This document shows positions 5,510-22,977 of a DNA stretch of 24,339 nt, in pieces. The first letter of the stretch is position 1; each line of letters begins with the position of its first letter. The stretch is from a virus: positions 1 through 24,339 of IMG/VR virus record IMGVR_UViG_3300004154_000045; one strand, written 5' to 3'. The notes below the pieces were generated by a model. It was given only the letters and a program-made list of their open reading frames with translations. It ran no database searches and was not told the DNA's origin. The translations under genes and the position numbers were made by a program.

Positions 5510-6382
5510 ATGGCATTAGCAAACGTAACAATGGATGTACTTTACCCTGAATTTTGGGCGAGTGCATTTGATAATTTAGATAAAGGTGATTATAACCTTC
5601 AGAACTTTGTAAATCGTAGTGTGGAAGGACAGCTTGCACAATATGGTGATACAGTAAACGTCCCGATCGTTGACAGTGTTTCTGCATCTGATTGGACACC
5701 CGGATCAACTATTACACCTTCTAACTCAACAGGTGCAGTAAAACAGGTCATTCTCAATAAGTCAAAGAATGCAGTTAAGGGATTCACTGATAAAGAACTT
5801 ACAATGTCACCTTATGACTTGATCAACAATTATGGTCAGGCAATGGCAGAAGGAATACTTGCCGCTGTAAATAGTGATATTTATACTGAAGCAATAGTCA
5901 GTACTAAAACGGTTGTGGGAACTACTCTTACTGCTGATGTAATTGCAGATGCAGAAACTGCACTTAATATCAACAAGGCATCTAAAAAGGGACGTATTCT
6001 TGTTGGTGCTCCTGATGCAATTGGCGCACTTCGTAAGCTTACAGCATTTCAAGATGCATCTAAATCTAATAACGATTCAGTTATTAAAGATGGTGCAATC
6101 ACAAGACAGTTTGGTTTTGATATCTATGAAAATAGTGCAATACCTTCAACAACTGGTTCATTGCTTGCTTTCGCACCTGAAGGACTCGCATTTGCAGCTC
6201 GTGGATACACTGCTTTGAACAAGCCCGGTGTAAACAGCTCAATCGTTAATGTAGCAGGTCTACCTATCCGTATATCAGTATGGACTGACTCTGCAACACT
6301 GAATACACTTGTTCAGTATGATATTCTTTACGGTGTTAAACTCGTAAATGAAAACCGTGTCATTGAGATTACCAGAGCCTAA
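5510..6382 (+). CDS. Major capsid protein (HK97 fold)
   Basis: 290 aa. The pattern is that of SPP1/P22-type coat proteins: an N-arm (MALANVTMDVLYPEFW), a YGDTVNVPIVD strand segment near residues 45-56, a helical spine, an A-domain region around LVGAPDAIGALRK, and a C-terminal strand block. It builds the icosahedral shell. There is no N-terminal delta domain like that of HK97, which fits with the separate scaffold gene upstream. It has a weak AGGAT ribosome site 9-10 nt before the ATG and is followed by a strong hairpin, both in line with its own expression control. Confidence 0.92.
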   Translation: MALANVTMDVLYPEFWASAFDNLDKGDYNLQNFVNRSVEGQLAQYGDTVNVPIVDSVSASDWTPGSTITPSNSTGAVKQVILNKSKNAVKGFTDKELTMSPYDLINNYGQAMAEGILAAVNSDIYTEAIVSTKTVVGTTLTADVIADAETALNINKASKKGRILVGAPDAIGALRKLTAFQDASKSNNDSVIKDGAITRQFGFDIYENSAIPSTTGSLLAFAPEGLAFAARGYTALNKPGVNSSIVNVAGLPIRISVWTDSATLNTLVQYDILYGVKLVNENRVIEITRA

Positions 6383-8211: not shown

Positions 8212-8793
8212 ATGCCAGTACAGACACCAATGTCGTCAGAGAATATTTATGTTGCTGATGGTGCCAGTTGCAAAATTGCAGCTAATACACCGACAGGAAC
8301 ACCCACATATACAGATATGGGAATTACTAAAGGCGATGCTGAATTTAAGATTGAGTGGAAAGCGGATAAAACACTTTCCGGTAATGCGGGTTATTTCCCT
8401 GTCACAGCCAAGGATTTGAAGATAACAGGGAAATTCACTCTTTATACGAAAGACCCTGATGTTATGGAAATTCTTGCAGGTGGTCTATTGAAAAAGACTA
8501 CTGATGATGCAGCATCAACTACACCTAACCGTGTACACTTAAAAGCCGGATCAACTTTTTTCAACCTTGCCCCTGTCGAATTTTGCTTTGAACACAAAGA
8601 TACTGCAAACAAGATCCGTGGACTAAAGATTTTTAACGCCACTGTCGCAAGCGGATCTTTTGGGTTTACATTTCTCGGAGCAGATAGTGAGGGACGTGAA
8701 ACAATTGAAGTCAGTTTTGAAGCAACTCCAGATGGAGCACGTGTTGATGGTGAATCATTATTTGATCAGTACACAGACCCTGGTGCACAGTAA
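8212..8793 (+). CDS. Major tail protein (tail tube)
   Basis: 193 aa. Beta-rich tube protein with an early VADGASCKIA segment, a WKADKTLSGNAGYFPV segment typical of tube proteins with a long loop, and a C-terminal FEATPDGARVDG region. It polymerises around the tape measure to form the tail tube. Unlike neighbouring head-tail genes it is not overlap-coupled: it has AGAGGATTA at 8198-8206 ahead of its ATG and a 9-bp hairpin after its stop. Both suit a highly expressed protein. It lies directly before the tail chaperones, as in other siphophages. Confidence 0.85.
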   Translation: MPVQTPMSSENIYVADGASCKIAANTPTGTPTYTDMGITKGDAEFKIEWKADKTLSGNAGYFPVTAKDLKITGKFTLYTKDPDVMEILAGGLLKKTTDDAASTTPNRVHLKAGSTFFNLAPVEFCFEHKDTANKIRGLKIFNATVASGSFGFTFLGADSEGRETIEVSFEATPDGARVDGESLFDQYTDPGAQ

Positions 8794-8825: not shown

Positions 8826-8924
8826 TTACCCTTACCACTAAATACATACCACAAATAACCACATAATAGAAAGCGTCAAATGACACTGGCTTATCTATTA
8901 TCAAATACGAATAGGATTATTAAC

Positions 8925-9416
8925 ATGGCTAAAGAAATTACATATAGATTAGATTACGTTGATGAAACCGGAAAACGATTAAGTAAAAATATCAGGGTCA
9001 ATTTTATCTCTAATCAAATGCGTGAAGATTTTAGACTGATTGAAAATGATATTATTGATGGGTATCGGCTTAAACATGAGTATGATGCACAGTTGATTGA
9101 ATTAAAGGCAAGATCAGTAAATGGTACATCGGTAGAAGATCTTGAACAATCCTTTAAGGATATCGAACTGAAATTTCAAGATATACTCGATAAGGGTAAA
9201 TTGGAAGAACGCCGGATGAAGCTTATCCAAAAGATATTGATCAGAAATGGATTCCAACCAACTGACAAATTTGTATTAGATGAATTCTGGAATGATTCTG
9301 TTGATGTCGAAACAATCAATGAGTTTTTAGCAGTAGCAATTGATAAAGATCTTGATAAAGTAAAAAAAAAGATTCAGACAACAACTTCACAACCATCTTC
9401 CACTGTGACCGATTAA
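8925..9416 (+). CDS. Tail assembly chaperone, short form (gpG-like)
   Basis: 163 aa from the ATG at 8925. A longer frame opens at 8880, but the 8925 start has an AGGATTA site 5 nt upstream of its ATG and yields a natural N-terminus (MAKEITYRLDY). The protein is helical and charged. Position between tube and tape measure is that of lambda gpG, the chaperone that coats the tape measure during tail assembly. Near its 3' end, codons 147-149 are AAA AAA AAG preceded by GTA, giving a slippery heptamer. Normal decoding ends at 9416. Frameshifted decoding makes the longer form that ends at 9637. Confidence 0.85.
   Translation: MAKEITYRLDYVDETGKRLSKNIRVNFISNQMREDFRLIENDIIDGYRLKHEYDAQLIELKARSVNGTSVEDLEQSFKDIELKFQDILDKGKLEERRMKLIQKILIRNGFQPTDKFVLDEFWNDSVDVETINEFLAVAIDKDLDKVKKKIQTTTSQPSSTVTD
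9362..9371 (+). promoter_or_regulatory. Programmed -1 frameshift site (A AAA AAA / A AAA AAG)
   Basis: In the chaperone frame the codons are GTA AAA AAA AAG, so A_AAA_AAG at 9365-9371 is an ideal -1 slippery heptamer and A_AAA_AAA overlaps it at 9362-9368. After a -1 slip, decoding continues with GAT at 9371 and stays open for 88 codons. No obvious stimulatory pseudoknot was found downstream, which is not unusual for A-rich bacterial sites. Transcriptional slippage on the nine-A run is an alternative mechanism. Confidence 0.85.
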
Positions 9417-9637
9417 TAGCCTCACTTAATAAATACTATAGAGCAGTAAGCAATAATGAATACTGGAATGAATGGGATATACCTACAACCAATAACGCTA
9501 TAGAAATAGCTCAATTCCCGGAATCTGTAATTACATGGATATGGGAAAAGAAATGCACCTGTGGAATTTATGTTCCGAGCATACCAAAACCCTCACGCAC
9601 ACAAACACAACAAACAGAATTTAAAGAAGTTAAATAG
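9371..9637 (+). CDS. Tail assembly chaperone frameshift extension (gpT part of gpG-T)
   Basis: This frame has no ATG near its beginning and is entered by the -1 slip at 9365-9371. It encodes 88 aa and ends at TAG 9635-9637, filling almost all of the space before the tape measure at 9649. The joined protein is 149 + 88 = 237 aa. The extension is rich in aromatic residues (WNEWD, then WIWEKK), holds a C-T-C-G motif and ends in a polar Thr/Gln-rich tail. In lambda the T part binds tube subunits while G binds the tape measure, and the same division is inferred here. It would be missed by ATG-based gene calling. Confidence 0.85.
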   Translation, partial: DSDNNFTTIFHCDRLIASLNKYYRAVSNNEYWNEWDIPTTNNAIEIAQFPESVITWIWEKKCTCGIYVPSIPKPSRTQTQQTEFKEVK

Positions 9638-9648
9638 CGTAAATAGAA

Positions 9649-12294
9649 ATGGCAGATACAATTGGATCGTACATATATAGGATTACAGGTGACACGTCAG
9701 AAGTCAACAAAGGGATTAAGGATACTCAATCTACTTTTGAATCAGCAGCGGGTAAAATCAAGGGTGCCTGTTTAGGCATTGCTGCAGCTTTAGGTGTTTC
9801 TTTTGGATTGAGCAAATTTGTCAGCCTTAACAAAGAAATGGTCAAACTTGCTGCTGAATCAGAGGTTGCAAGTAAGAGATTCGGAAGTACTTTTCCTGAT
9901 GCGTTGGATAAAGCGTCAAAAAGTATAGCAACGTTACAGGAACGTTTCAGTTACGGGGATGATGATGCTCAAGCATTAATGGCTGATGTCGGAATTTTAG
10001 CACAACAACTTGGAATTACTGAAGAGGCATCTGTTTCCTACGCTGAATCCATGCTTGGTCTCGGTGCTGATTTGGCTTCATTTCGTGGAGAGTCTGAGAA
10101 AGCCGGTGAAATGACCAATGCTCTCATGGCTGCTACAAAGGGCATGACCCGTGAATGCAAAAGTTTAGGACTATTTCTTGATGATGATCATTTAGAAGAT
10201 TATGCTAAACGGTTGGGAAAAACCACTGATCAGCTCAATAGTGCTGAAAAAGCACAGGCAATTTTAAATGAAGCACAGCGTCAGATGTCCAGTATGGGTG
10301 CTATTGGTGCTGCAGCTGCAAATTTAAACTCTTATTCCACATCAGCGTATCGTTTAGCTACAGCATTTGAGGATGCGGAACAGTCAGCAGGTAAAAAATT
10401 AATACCTGCAGTAGCCAGCCTTAACAATGAATTGATACAAGCCATATCTCCGGGTGGTGCATTTGCAGACGTTTTAGATGATATAGCATCGGCTGGATCT
10501 GTAGCAACACGTACACTCACCGCTATGTTAAGTAAATTAAATGAGGTGAGTCTTCAGCAGAAAGCACAGGATATATCCAGCCAGTTATTTGGCGCTAATA
10601 GTCAGATGTCTTCATTGACCCGTCAGATTGAAAACTTTTATGGATCAATTGAAAATGCAAAAAAGAAAGCTTCTGGTAATACGGATGAGGCGAGAAATGC
10701 AAAGCGTTTGGTTAGGCAATATGATGACTTGGCTGTACGGTTAAAAGATCTTAACGAGTTAAACAAGCAGATACAAAAAACGTCTCAGAAAAATGATCTT
10801 TCTGATATGTATAAAAAAGCTGAAGCTGCTGCTACACATGCAGCGGATTCATTTCGATTTGCATCCAATGCAATACAAGATCCCGATCTTGAAAATGGTC
10901 GTTATGCTAAAATGACGATTCAGCAAATAGCTGATATGACTGCAAAAACTACGGGTGAGAAGTATGCTAAAGAACGTGCACAGGCAGCGTTAAAGGCATA
11001 TAACGCTGAAATGCGTGTAGCTAATGATCTGTACGCTAAAGCTGATGCATCCGCTCGTAAGTTAAAGATTTCAACAGATGAGCTAAATATATCAGAGGAT
11101 AAACCAAAGCCCAAGCATAAAGCATATGTAGCTCCAACACCGGGAAAATCTTCTGGTTCTGAAGATGATCTTAAAAAGCAGATAGCAGAAGCAGAGGGTG
11201 CACGTACTGCTATATTAGGCATTAATGCTGAAGTATTAACTCTTGCACAAACCATCTCACAGATGGATGCGGGACAATTAAAAGATTTAAAAGCTAACCT
11301 TGATTTAAATCATGCCAGTGAGGGTGCTAAGAAATTTGCAGATGCATTTAGTAATGTAGATATAACAAAACTTAATCAATCACTGCTGAATGATTCCATT
11401 GATAAAAATATAGCTCAATGGGGTACATCTCTAAAAGCGTGTGGCGATGCCGCTAAGTCAATCAATGTATCACCTTCTATTTCTGATGAAATTATAAAAG
11501 CTCGTACTGAAACAGAAAATTGGATCGATACTGTTGGTAAAGTAACAGATGCATATGGAACATTACAATCCTCAGCAACCTCAATACTTAACAGTTTAGC
11601 TTCAATAACTGCTAATCAATATGCAACTGAAATAGCTGCATTAGATAGACAAAAGGAAAAGGCTTTAGAAGTTGCAGGTGTATCTGAAGATACAGCGGTT
11701 GAATCATCGGAGAAATCGTATCAGTTAGCTTTGAAATCAGGGAATAGTGTTCTTATTAACAGTAAAAAGAACGCACTGGCTAAGGCTAAGATCGATGAAG
11801 AGTATGAGAAAAAGAAGAGTGATCTTGAATTTAAAGCAGCGATGAGAGCGTGGGAATATAAAGAAGTAAGTGCTATTGTGGAAGTCCCTGTTGCCGTGGG
11901 TAGAGCAATATCATCTGCAGCGTCAGCACCTTGGCCAACTACACCCGGATTCATGGCGGCATATGCTGGTATGGCGGGAGTAGCAGCAGGTGCTCAATTA
12001 GCTGCAGTAACAGCAAGTAAACCTAAACGATCCAACTATCAGGAAGGGGGAATTATTCCAGGTAACTCATTCAGGGGTGATCATAGTCAAGTCAATGTGA
12101 ATGCGGGTGAAATGATCATTAACGCGGCACAACAGGCTCAACTATTTGCTTTAGCTAATGGTAAGGGTGGATCAGCGACAACTGTACAGCCTATCAATGT
12201 ATATATCGGAAACGAGTTAGTCTATTCAGGTATTTATGACGGTACAAAGAACGGTGATATTATGGTTCATCAAAACGGGATTACAAATAGATGA
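9649..12294 (+). CDS. Tail tape measure protein
   Basis: 881 aa, the largest gene of the window. The N-terminus (MADTIGSYIYRITGDTSEV) and a hydrophobic stretch at about residues 38-58 are typical of tape measures. Helical, Ala/Lys/Gln-rich sequence follows. A second hydrophobic Gly/Ala stretch lies in the last 150 residues, followed by a YQEGGIIPG motif common near tape measure C-termini. It sets tail length and may aid DNA entry. By the usual 1.5 angstrom per residue, a tail of roughly 130 nm is expected. No peptidoglycan hydrolase domain is evident. Its last 4 nt overlap the next gene (ATGA). Confidence 0.93.
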   Translation: MADTIGSYIYRITGDTSEVNKGIKDTQSTFESAAGKIKGACLGIAAALGVSFGLSKFVSLNKEMVKLAAESEVASKRFGSTFPDALDKASKSIATLQERFSYGDDDAQALMADVGILAQQLGITEEASVSYAESMLGLGADLASFRGESEKAGEMTNALMAATKGMTRECKSLGLFLDDDHLEDYAKRLGKTTDQLNSAEKAQAILNEAQRQMSSMGAIGAAAANLNSYSTSAYRLATAFEDAEQSAGKKLIPAVASLNNELIQAISPGGAFADVLDDIASAGSVATRTLTAMLSKLNEVSLQQKAQDISSQLFGANSQMSSLTRQIENFYGSIENAKKKASGNTDEARNAKRLVRQYDDLAVRLKDLNELNKQIQKTSQKNDLSDMYKKAEAAATHAADSFRFASNAIQDPDLENGRYAKMTIQQIADMTAKTTGEKYAKERAQAALKAYNAEMRVANDLYAKADASARKLKISTDELNISEDKPKPKHKAYVAPTPGKSSGSEDDLKKQIAEAEGARTAILGINAEVLTLAQTISQMDAGQLKDLKANLDLNHASEGAKKFADAFSNVDITKLNQSLLNDSIDKNIAQWGTSLKACGDAAKSINVSPSISDEIIKARTETENWIDTVGKVTDAYGTLQSSATSILNSLASITANQYATEIAALDRQKEKALEVAGVSEDTAVESSEKSYQLALKSGNSVLINSKKNALAKAKIDEEYEKKKSDLEFKAAMRAWEYKEVSAIVEVPVAVGRAISSAASAPWPTTPGFMAAYAGMAGVAAGAQLAAVTASKPKRSNYQEGGIIPGNSFRGDHSQVNVNAGEMIINAAQQAQLFALANGKGGSATTVQPINVYIGNELVYSGIYDGTKNGDIMVHQNGITNR

Positions 12295-17694: not shown

Positions 17695-17887
17695 AAAAAC
17701 AATAACCATAAAAGTTAAATCAAAAGACTCTGAAGATTTTGCAGAGAAAGAAAAGATCAAAATTGATGAGGATCAGTTTAATGATTACCTGTATAGGCTT
17801 AATCTTGATGTTGAAATCTATAACAGAGATAATGAGGATCAGTTAAGAATTGAGTTACTTGATGATGAATTAGAGATAGTTGAATAA
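17687..17887 (+). CDS. Small acidic protein, unknown
   Basis: 66 aa from the ATG at 17687, which overlaps the end of the fibre gene by 8 nt. A TTG further upstream is less likely. The first dozen residues are basic (MRKKTITIKVK), and the remainder is strongly acidic with many Asp, Glu and Asn and no Cys. The alternating pattern suggests strand-helix-strand. It is coupled to the glycosyltransferase by TAATG, so the two are made together. A fibre chaperone or a partner of the glycosyltransferase are both possible. No family recognised. Confidence 0.65.
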   Translation: MRKKTITIKVKSKDSEDFAEKEKIKIDEDQFNDYLYRLNLDVEIYNRDNEDQLRIELLDDELEIVE

Positions 17888-18600
17888 TGCGTTTAGTTGT
17901 AATATCTCAGAATCAATCCTCTCACATTCCCCAAATACTTTCTAAAACTAATATTATTACAGATCGTTTAATTGTATTAGATCGATGCACTGATAATAGT
18001 ATAGATGTATGTAAAGCTTTAAGAGTAAACTATATAACTACTCCTACCACATTACAAGGATTTCAAGCCGGATATGCTCGTAACTTAGGTGTAGATAATT
18101 ATTCAGGTGATGTTATCTTCTTAGACGGTGATAGAGTACCTGTACATGAGTTTGATGATGATCTACTAACCAGTCTCAAAAGATATGATACGTGTCTATT
18201 TCCTGTTAAAAATGATATAAGATCAACAATACATTCTACACAGTTTATTGATAATCCTAAACATGGCTTGATGAGTAATGACTTTTTCTCATGCGGGTTA
18301 TATCTATCCTTAAAATCACTTCAGACAATAAGAGAATTTCAAGGATTTATATTTGATCCTGAATTTAATGGGAAGTGGGGTGATGAGGATTGTGCATTAG
18401 GTGATGTGTGTTATGATCGTGGGTTGTCATGCGGATTAGTACCAATGCATTATTGTCTATCAGGTAGCTTTGATGGATTAGATGGCAGAGTAAAAACAGA
18501 TGAATACGCTTTACAATGTAGACTACGATTTATGAAACGAATGAAACTAAACGTCCTTTGGACTGACTTCAATGCTAAATACAAAACAAATATAAAATAG
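17887..18600 (+). CDS. Family 2-like (GT-A) glycosyltransferase
   Basis: 237 aa. A GT-A fold is shown by a VLDRCTDNS segment (30-38), corresponding to the VDDGSTDNT sugar-nucleotide loop. A-x-x-ARNLG follows at 62-68, then the metal-binding LDGDR with D80 and D82, and the catalytic-type WGDEDCALG at 164-172. These are the hallmarks of family 2/galactosyltransferase-like enzymes. There is no signal peptide or TM segment, so it acts in the cytoplasm. In phages such enzymes modify virion proteins, DNA or host surface sugars. The place directly after the fibre favours fibre or cell-surface glycan modification, which is inference. Six Cys in the second half are unusual for the family. Confidence 0.85.
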   Translation: MRLVVISQNQSSHIPQILSKTNIITDRLIVLDRCTDNSIDVCKALRVNYITTPTTLQGFQAGYARNLGVDNYSGDVIFLDGDRVPVHEFDDDLLTSLKRYDTCLFPVKNDIRSTIHSTQFIDNPKHGLMSNDFFSCGLYLSLKSLQTIREFQGFIFDPEFNGKWGDEDCALGDVCYDRGLSCGLVPMHYCLSGSFDGLDGRVKTDEYALQCRLRFMKRMKLNVLWTDFNAKYKTNIK

Positions 18601-20656: not shown

Positions 20657-20691
20657 AGGGGTAGTCTGCTATATGTGGATTACCCTTTTTT
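20657..20691 (+). terminator. Rho-independent terminator closing the late region
   Basis: GGGTAGTC (20659-20666) pairs with GATTACCC (20678-20685) including one G-T pair, extended by G-T and A-T at the base, with an 11-nt loop and then six T (20686-20691). It separates the densely packed phage genes from the exported proteins to the right. A TATAAT-like sequence at 20629-20634 precedes it, but has no proper -35 region. Confidence 0.75.
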
Positions 20692-20744
20692 ATTTGACTT
20701 TTTTGATAATAATGAGAAGTTATATGAAACATAAGAGGTGTACC

Positions 20745-21896
20745 ATGAAAAAGACATTGTTGGTAATGCTGTTCTTAACAGTCTATTCTTTAACTTTTGC
20801 TGCCCCTGATAATGGAACAAAAAAGTCAGGTGATATTGATAATCCATTGTTCCTTGGTCATTTTATGTCAAAAGGATATTCGATAAATGCTGGAGCAACA
20901 TGGGTAGAATCAATTGATGAGCTTGGTATTATTACTTATGATAGAATAGCGATAGCAGATAAATCAAAACCAAATGGATTCAATAACTTCTTCGTTGATT
21001 ACGTATTAGAGTACAAAGTAAAACCAAAAAATGCTTCAGAATCAACAGCAATTGAGGTACATGTACAAAATAGTACTGTAGTAATCAATATAGTCTACAT
21101 GCCAGAGACAGATAGTTACATAATTATTTTTAAAACAGATGGGTATGATGAAAAGCGAAGAGATATAATATACAAAGATGATAAGGTCGGGGATGAGAAA
21201 AGACTAATAGAAGAAAATGAAAGAAAAAAGAAAGAAAAGTCAAATGGTCTGATGATTGTTACTCCAAAAAAAGAGATTTCAGATGATGAAAATGATATGA
21301 GCGCTTTAATACTTGCCATTGAAAAAAATAATACTGAAAAAGCATTATCCATCTTAAATGATGGTAATATTGATGTTAATACGAAAATCACGGATAATTC
21401 AGCTCTATATATGGCAGTAGAGCGGAATAGGACTATTGTTGTAAAGAAACTTATAGAAAAGAAAGCTAATGTGAATTACTGTGATCGCTTAGGAAAGACA
21501 CCACTATTTGTTGCAATAGAAAAAGACTGTGATTTTGAGATTATAAAACAATTAGTAGATGCAAAGGCAGATTGCAATATAAGGACAAAGGGGAGACAAG
21601 CGATTTTAGTCAGATTAATTAGGGGCAATTCAGAAAAAAGATGTGAAATAATTGAATATTTGTTACAAAACGGTGCAGACCCCAATATTCCAGAAAATGC
21701 TGATTATACACCCTTAGTGGCTGCTATCGAAATGAATGGTAATACTCAAATAGATTATCCATTAATACAATTACTCATAAAGAAAAAGGCCAATGTAAAT
21801 GCAAAAAATTCCCAAGGAAGAACTCCTTTAACCATTGCAAAACGATATAAAAATAAACCTGTAATTGATATGTTAATGGCTGCGGGTGCAAATTAA
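20745..21896 (+). CDS. Exported ankyrin-repeat protein
   Basis: 383 aa from the ATG at 20745, chosen because AGAGGTG lies 4 nt upstream and a classical signal peptide starts here (MKK, then about 15 hydrophobic residues, cleavage likely near FAAPDNG). A longer frame opens at 20673 without such signals. Residues about 30-150 form a beta-rich domain of unknown type, followed by a Lys/Glu-rich linker. About residues 185-383 are five or six ankyrin repeats, recognisable by TPL-x-x-AI helices and the VN or N-x-x-D-x-x-G turns (for example KANVNAKNSQGRTPL). No lipobox Cys, so periplasmic or secreted. Ankyrin repeats bind proteins. A toxin-neutralising or host-interaction role would be inference. 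The lysis and head genes have no such features, so this is a moron or host gene. Confidence 0.8.
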   Translation: MKKTLLVMLFLTVYSLTFAAPDNGTKKSGDIDNPLFLGHFMSKGYSINAGATWVESIDELGIITYDRIAIADKSKPNGFNNFFVDYVLEYKVKPKNASESTAIEVHVQNSTVVINIVYMPETDSYIIIFKTDGYDEKRRDIIYKDDKVGDEKRLIEENERKKKEKSNGLMIVTPKKEISDDENDMSALILAIEKNNTEKALSILNDGNIDVNTKITDNSALYMAVERNRTIVVKKLIEKKANVNYCDRLGKTPLFVAIEKDCDFEIIKQLVDAKADCNIRTKGRQAILVRLIRGNSEKRCEIIEYLLQNGADPNIPENADYTPLVAAIEMNGNTQIDYPLIQLLIKKKANVNAKNSQGRTPLTIAKRYKNKPVIDMLMAAGAN

Positions 21897-21975: not shown

Positions 21976-22977
21976 ATGAAAAAGATAATGACAGTAATAA
22001 TTTTATTCATGTCTACTATGCTTGTTGCACAGGTACCTGAAGATTTGACAGAACAAGTAAATAAAGAAGTTTTATCAGAACTGTCTGGTACATGGTATAT
22101 ATTTTCAAACACAAAACCATTTGAACAATTAGGTATTTTAACTCTGATAGATGATGGTTTAATTTCTGATGGCTCAAATATTATCATAAAAGAAAGTGAT
22201 ATCAGTGAAGATTATGATATATGGTGGAGTGCAAAAGATAATACAGGGTTTGATGTTATTAAGAGAAAAAAAGGTGCACAGAATCAAGTAATAATTCAGC
22301 ATGTTCAGTGCATTGTTTCTGATAAGGATAAGAAAAAAATCAATAAAAGCTATTACGAATACCTTTCAAAGATTGGATATTTAGAATCCAATAATAAGGA
22401 AATGGGTATATTGATTGTAACCAAAGATGAAAATTTTGCAAATAGTGAAATTACAAAAAATCTAAAAAGTAAATGGGCTAAACTAAATAAAAATTCTGTA
22501 AAGGATCATATTGATTTCTATAAAAGTTTATCTGATGATGAACTGAAAAGAGATGTTTATAAATCGTTATTTGAATTAGTAGATAAAAAGATATTGAAAG
22601 TCCTTGTTAAAGAATATCCAAAATATAAAAATCATTTTAATAAACCATTGCAAGTTGGAGAACAATCCTATGATAAGTTATATAGATTTTTTACTGTAAG
22701 TATTGCCGGGATAAATCCTGATAATGATTACAAAATTGAATCAAGTATTACAGCTAACAGAAATAATCTATCCGTATTTGATATTAAGTGGAAATATGCA
22801 CAAGATGTTGTATTTGAAATAGAACCAAGTAAAAATTATGTAAGACTTGTTAATGTTCTCAAGGATGGGGATACTGTCGAAGGATGGCCATTAGCTATAC
22901 ATATACTGTTCCCTGCTTTTACTGAATATCCAGATATAGATCATATTGATTATAAGTTACTTGATTCTGTGAAATAA
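21976..22977 (+). CDS. Exported protein of unknown function
   Basis: 333 aa. A clear signal peptide (MKKIMTVIILFMSTMLVAQ, likely cleavage near Ala18) is followed by a mature protein rich in Lys, Asp, Ile and Asn. An early SGTWYIFSN segment recalls lipocalin- or SrpA-like starts (xGxWY) but the remainder does not clearly match. A strongly helical part covers about residues 150-235, and the C-terminal 80 residues appear beta-rich. AGGAAGG lies upstream of the ATG. A TATAAT sits at 21907-21912 in the 79-nt gap to the ankyrin gene but without a good -35. Same strand and secretory nature as the ankyrin gene suggest a shared role. Confidence 0.7.
   Translation: MKKIMTVIILFMSTMLVAQVPEDLTEQVNKEVLSELSGTWYIFSNTKPFEQLGILTLIDDGLISDGSNIIIKESDISEDYDIWWSAKDNTGFDVIKRKKGAQNQVIIQHVQCIVSDKDKKKINKSYYEYLSKIGYLESNNKEMGILIVTKDENFANSEITKNLKSKWAKLNKNSVKDHIDFYKSLSDDELKRDVYKSLFELVDKKILKVLVKEYPKYKNHFNKPLQVGEQSYDKLYRFFTVSIAGINPDNDYKIESSITANRNNLSVFDIKWKYAQDVVFEIEPSKNYVRLVNVLKDGDTVEGWPLAIHILFPAFTEYPDIDHIDYKLLDSVK

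Follow-up and report, generated by a model that had tools for sequence, protein, structure and literature searches.

A conserved -1 frame transition at an A run near the end of a tail chaperone gene, with ribosomal slippage as its probable route

The best-known system of the kind considered here is the gpG/gpGT pair of phage lambda, whose slippery heptamer is G_GGA_AAG; the reference connected with this frameshift is reportedly Xu, Hendrix and Duda 2004. The G/GT type of tail assembly chaperone is characterized by a short form that binds the tape measure protein and by an extension, present in the long form, that binds the major tail protein; both forms are absent from the virion. The available excerpts of PMC5009743 describe these binding roles for lambda and state that the G/GT arrangement is kept in spite of low sequence similarity. 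In addition, frameshifting of 6-7% has been reported for tail chaperone cassettes (excerpts of PMC3711429), and AAAAAAG is given as the tail chaperone frameshift site of psiM2, PVL, ul36, and others (excerpts of PMC3483164, citing earlier work).

The stretch of DNA analysed here, an IMG/VR virus record of 24,339 bases (the window), has a comparable layout. On one strand, a gene for the major tail protein (assigned by position) is followed by a chaperone gene and then by the tape measure gene, and the features in question are as follows.

8212..8793, + strand: probable major tail protein, 193 aa (by position only)
8925..9416, + strand: short tail assembly chaperone (G-like), 163 aa (open reading frame; the relatives L046, L074, and L088 have homologues ahead of their tape measure genes)
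9362..9370, + strand: nine-A run, the shift site (sequence; 9-10 A's at the equivalent place in 3/3 divergent relatives)
9362..9368, + strand: slippery heptamer A_AAA_AAA, in frame (sequence)
9365..9371, + strand: slippery heptamer A_AAA_AAG, in frame (sequence)
9371..9637, + strand: -1-frame extension (T-like), 88 codons plus TAG (open frame; three relatives have homologous extensions, E 2.3e-15 with a held-out profile)
9649..12294, + strand: tail length tape measure protein, 881 aa (residues 720-844 match PHROG 24676 with E 1.2e-7; proteins annotated as tape measure proteins match weakly)

A search of PHROGs with the 8212-8793 protein gave no match. The codons at the junction read GTA AAA AAA AAG ATT, and both heptamers are therefore in the frame of 8925-9416; a preliminary description of this DNA had pointed to the in-frame A_AAA_AAG near the end of the chaperone gene, and it is indeed there, within the run. 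That description had also proposed an open -1 frame of 88 codons, lacking a start of its own and filling the gap up to the tape measure gene. Both features are present: the frame extends from 9371 to 9634, its TAG (9635-9637) ends 11 bases upstream of the tape measure gene, and a search of the window's extension frame for ATG, GTG, TTG, and CTG finds none of the four. Since a TAA in the -1 frame (9356-9358) directly precedes the nine-A run and the frame is start-less, the shift must occur between 9359 and 9413. With an in-frame ATG at 8880 as its start, the chaperone would be 15 residues longer; the relatives align to 8925, and given this start the earlier numbering of the junction as K149-D150 is right.

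How much of this could arise by chance depends on the feature chosen. When the stretch is shuffled by mononucleotides 20,000 times, the 88-codon opening is retained in 31 cases. The rarity of the heptamer was rejected as evidence, because in this A-rich DNA the 25 open reading frames of the window hold four in-frame occurrences of A_AAA_AAG, the junction counted. A first-order model predicts a mean of 1.07 runs of at least nine A's per such window, and the chance that one falls within the shift window is about 1.07 x 55/24339 = 0.002. What is improbable by chance is the place of the A run and, above all, conservation across relatives; the decisive support for the frame transition is comparative.

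Three divergent relatives were found, L046 and L074 with an alignment of the tape measure C-terminus and L088 with an alignment of the chaperone core. A further contig, L007, from another IMG dataset, is identical to the window over all its 11,774 bases; it may not be an independent sample and, being identical, is uninformative on conservation. In L046, L074, and L088, as in the window, the chaperone gene precedes the tape measure gene and is followed by an extension in the -1 frame, and the fused protein of the window is 28-29% identical to theirs. The comparison with related phages that had been suggested as a check therefore finds a homologous -1-frame extension at the equivalent place in 3/3 divergent homologues.

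The homology was examined with held-out profiles, in which a profile built from three extensions was run against the six-frame stop-to-stop frames of the fourth member's locus. In each case, the extension was the best-scoring frame: E 2.3e-15 among 310 frames for the window (next 1.2), 1.6e-13 among 186 for L046 (next 1.5), 6.6e-17 among 195 for L074 (next 0.3), and 3.1e-16 among 239 for L088 (next 1.9). Held-out core profiles gave E values of 3.1e-14, 7.1e-18, 1.3e-37, and 1.1e-31 for the window, L046, L074, and L088, respectively. The extension residues that are invariant in the alignment include L-I, E-Y, and I-W. Furthermore, the conserved part of the extension begins immediately 3' of the A run, while the residues that follow the run in the 0 frame number 14, 5, 9, and 2 in the window, L046, L074, and L088. 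Conservation of the extension and of the direction of the shift, together with an unconserved short end, is what a programmed shift predicts. Neither a conserved start belonging to the extension nor stops near the junction, either of which would speak against this arrangement, are found as a conserved feature in any of the three homologues. Because the -1-frame extensions are homologous in 4/4 members, the frame transition is almost certainly programmed.

The family was sought more widely. Searches with single proteins (the chaperone, the probable major tail protein, and the major capsid protein) returned the identical contig only, and relatives chosen by terminase were dropped as a comparison set because their tail genes are too distant. 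Two scans of genome contigs with the fusion alignments gave 58 and 118 candidate stretches and 0 confirmed relatives. No match was obtained by tblastn with the window's core and extension against phages or with the L088 fusion against phages and plasmids. Among 92 loci, the core profile had no match beyond the four members and copies (best E 1.4), and the extension profile had no clear one (best 0.04, a fragment in L050).

Two observations concern other loci of this set. In L005 (2097-2795), L071 (2187-2912), and L077 (2268-2939), a single unbroken open reading frame of 223-241 aa lies directly before the tape measure gene and a -1 extension is not seen, perhaps representing a lineage that manages without the shift; since neither the core nor the extension profile has a clear match there, these loci are no evidence against the reading of the window. 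In L073 (4193-4483), an unrelated short gene before a tape measure-like open reading frame contains ACA AAA AAA GTT, with seven A's, from which a -1 frame continues as far as the following ATG, making this another likely G/GT site.

How, then, is the frame changed? The reading we favor places the slip at translation rather than transcription. In this model, most ribosomes would read 8925-9416 and yield the short protein of 163 residues, while a presumed minority would slip back one base on the A run, at A_AAA_AAA or A_AAA_AAG, and continue in the -1 frame to yield a protein of 237 residues (149 of the core and 88 of the extension). By analogy with lambda gpG/gpGT, coating of the tape measure protein would be the task of the core, while the extension would recruit the major tail protein. 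Two tail chaperones from one start, with a -1 ribosomal slip as the main route, is probably the correct full statement of the system. In Escherichia coli, ribosomes shift strongly at A_AAA_AAG (PMC5009743, in excerpt), and a shift in the -1 direction only is considered a mark of ribosomal shifting, given that cases of polymerase slippage show both directions (excerpts of PMC3711429).

The two overlapping heptamers had been suggested to give more than one product. With ribosomal slippage this part of the proposal is rejected, since a -1 slip on either heptamer generates one identical protein (VKKK-D). With polymerase slippage it stands: only then would the +1 frame also be entered, adding RFRQQLHNHLPL before a stop and thus creating an extra short variant.

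The main competitor to a ribosomal slip is that RNA polymerase itself slips on the nine-A run, so that the long chaperone arises by transcriptional slippage, alone or together with a ribosomal slip; transcripts that had gained one A (or lost two) would then be read normally into the extension. We consider this possible but rather unlikely. Several observations speak for it. The junction runs contain 9 A's in the window, 10 in L046, 9 in L074, and 10 in L088, so that the length is kept while the codon phase differs. In the open reading frame sets of the four loci, none of the nine other Lys-Lys-Lys stretches has at least nine A's; the contrast of 4/4 junctions with 0/9 other stretches (Fisher, 1/715) is a guide only, the four members being related. 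Across the whole contigs (141 kb), nine A's occur at four further places besides the junctions, three in the contig of L046 and one in that of L088. Runs of more than seven A's are published slippage sites, and nine A's serve dnaX of Thermus in this way (excerpts of PMC3711429). In addition, no downstream stem-loop or Shine-Dalgarno-like site is common to the four members. A shared RNA structure was rejected, as z for the window and L088 stays at about 0 to +1, with outliers in L046 at 80 and 120 bases (-3.45 and -2.36) and in L074 at 120 bases (-3.28). With 9-10 A's where 7 suffice and no shared stimulator, polymerase slippage would serve equally.

However, the direction is -1 in 4/4 members (few as these are), whereas slippage genes have been reported with both directions (PMC3711429, in excerpt), and in-frame heptamers are retained in all four members, each of which has A_AAA_AAA. 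That A_AAA_AAG itself occurs at the junction of the window only counts, in turn, against the ribosomal route. The lack of stimulators decides little, because certain tailed phages seem to manage their ribosomal shift without them as well (excerpts of PMC5009743). Likewise, in another gene cluster, 7, 9, and 11 A's gave efficiencies of 10, 40, and 63% (excerpts of PMC3711429); as efficiency rises with run length, the many A's may do no more than increase the output of whichever mechanism is used. None of the excerpts of PMC5009743, PMC3711429, or PRFect describes polymerase slippage at a tail chaperone. That polymerase slipping on 9-10 A's sets the ratio of short to long chaperone in this phage group, wholly or in part, is a tentative proposal, which we hold to be well short of an even chance; if it did, a mix of transcripts would feed the tail length machinery.

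A quite different idea, in which the extension would be translated as a small protein of its own, from a start within the overlap or by re-initiation after the stop of the short gene, is very improbable. Phages often have short genes in tight head-to-tail succession, and L088, alone among the members, has an ATG in the -1 frame (6366), 51 bases upstream of its run. Against this, the window's extension frame has none of the four start codons sought, the first ATG of this frame in L046 and L074 lies well inside the conserved part, and conservation begins right at the 3' edge of the run. Least credible of all is an error of sequencing or assembly in the A run that split one ordinary gene, because, error-prone as homopolymer runs are and metagenomic as these assemblies are, the -1 relation recurs in 3/3 divergent contigs of other datasets, with L007, the identical and perhaps not independent copy, agreeing as well.

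With a ribosomal -1 slip still preferred, what is the protein? Its assignment to the lambda G/GT type of chaperone has good support, the name deriving from position and arrangement. This assignment, already made in the preliminary description, agrees with the place of the gene, the layout of the frames, and their conservation in 4/4 members; Pfam and PHROGs hold no relative, as every match of the window's core and extension had an E value greater than 0.02. With all four members considered, PHROGs is best matched at phrog_22178, of unknown function (E 0.0019 for the core of L074 and 0.0027 for its fusion). A model of the core built with the four sequences (pLDDT 72.8) consists of two strands and then helices. 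Against BFVD, the first of its 684 matches is ORF19 of psiM2 (E 5.5e-3), a weak similarity with a TM of 0.44 and an rmsd of 11.7, yet one that points to a gene in just the place expected. Against PDB and VIA, only helical look-alikes were obtained; a tail chaperone of solved structure is not among the matches listed for the core, which says nothing either way. The model of the extension (pLDDT 64.6) had no structural match below E 1.5.

Some other genes of the window deserve mention. The major capsid protein (5510-6382) matches the P22 coat protein family (E 7.9e-11), while the gene order is otherwise siphophage-like. A glycosyltransferase-2-like protein (17887-18600; E 5.5e-4, under the curated cut-off) adjoins the tail genes. 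Toward the right end of the contig, 20673-21896 encodes an ankyrin repeat protein (Ank_2, E 1.6e-26) with an apparent N-terminal signal-like stretch, an unusual cargo; the neighboring open reading frame (21976-22977) also begins with a signal-like stretch.

Compared with known systems, the locus has in common with lambda gpG/gpGT a short gene immediately upstream of the tape measure gene, a slippery site near the end of this short gene, and a -1 extension that lacks a start and runs as far as the tape measure gene. It differs in that no sequence similarity was detected and in that the window uses an A run rather than the lambda heptamer. Methanobacterium phage psiM2 ORF19 (O80209, NC_001902), the top but weak BFVD match of the core model, is likewise placed between a structural gene (ORF18) and the tape measure gene, and its GAA AAA AAG leads into an open -1 frame. 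However, neither the core profile (E 0.89) nor the extension profile matches it, it has seven A's instead of nine, and its extension stops short of the tape measure gene. As a separate observation, at 7210-7949 of L093 (NC_001902 13209-13948) psiM2 ORF19 continues through its GAA AAA AAG into a -1 open stretch of 78 codons, for which no gene is annotated in the record.

The arrangement itself is a well-known phage one, and what the present locus adds to it is a chaperone family absent from the libraries searched. Since the extensions are homologous in four divergent phages, they can be annotated in such contigs. In dnaX, whose gene and purpose are unrelated to those of the window's chaperone, A_AAA_AAG works at the ribosome in E. 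coli (excerpts of PMC5009743) and nine A's work at transcription in Thermus thermophilus (excerpts of PMC3711429), and the available accounts report that the two routes replace each other. If the 9-10 A's of these phages mean polymerase slippage, the locus would provide a test case for whether both routes can substitute for one another within a single conserved gene pair.
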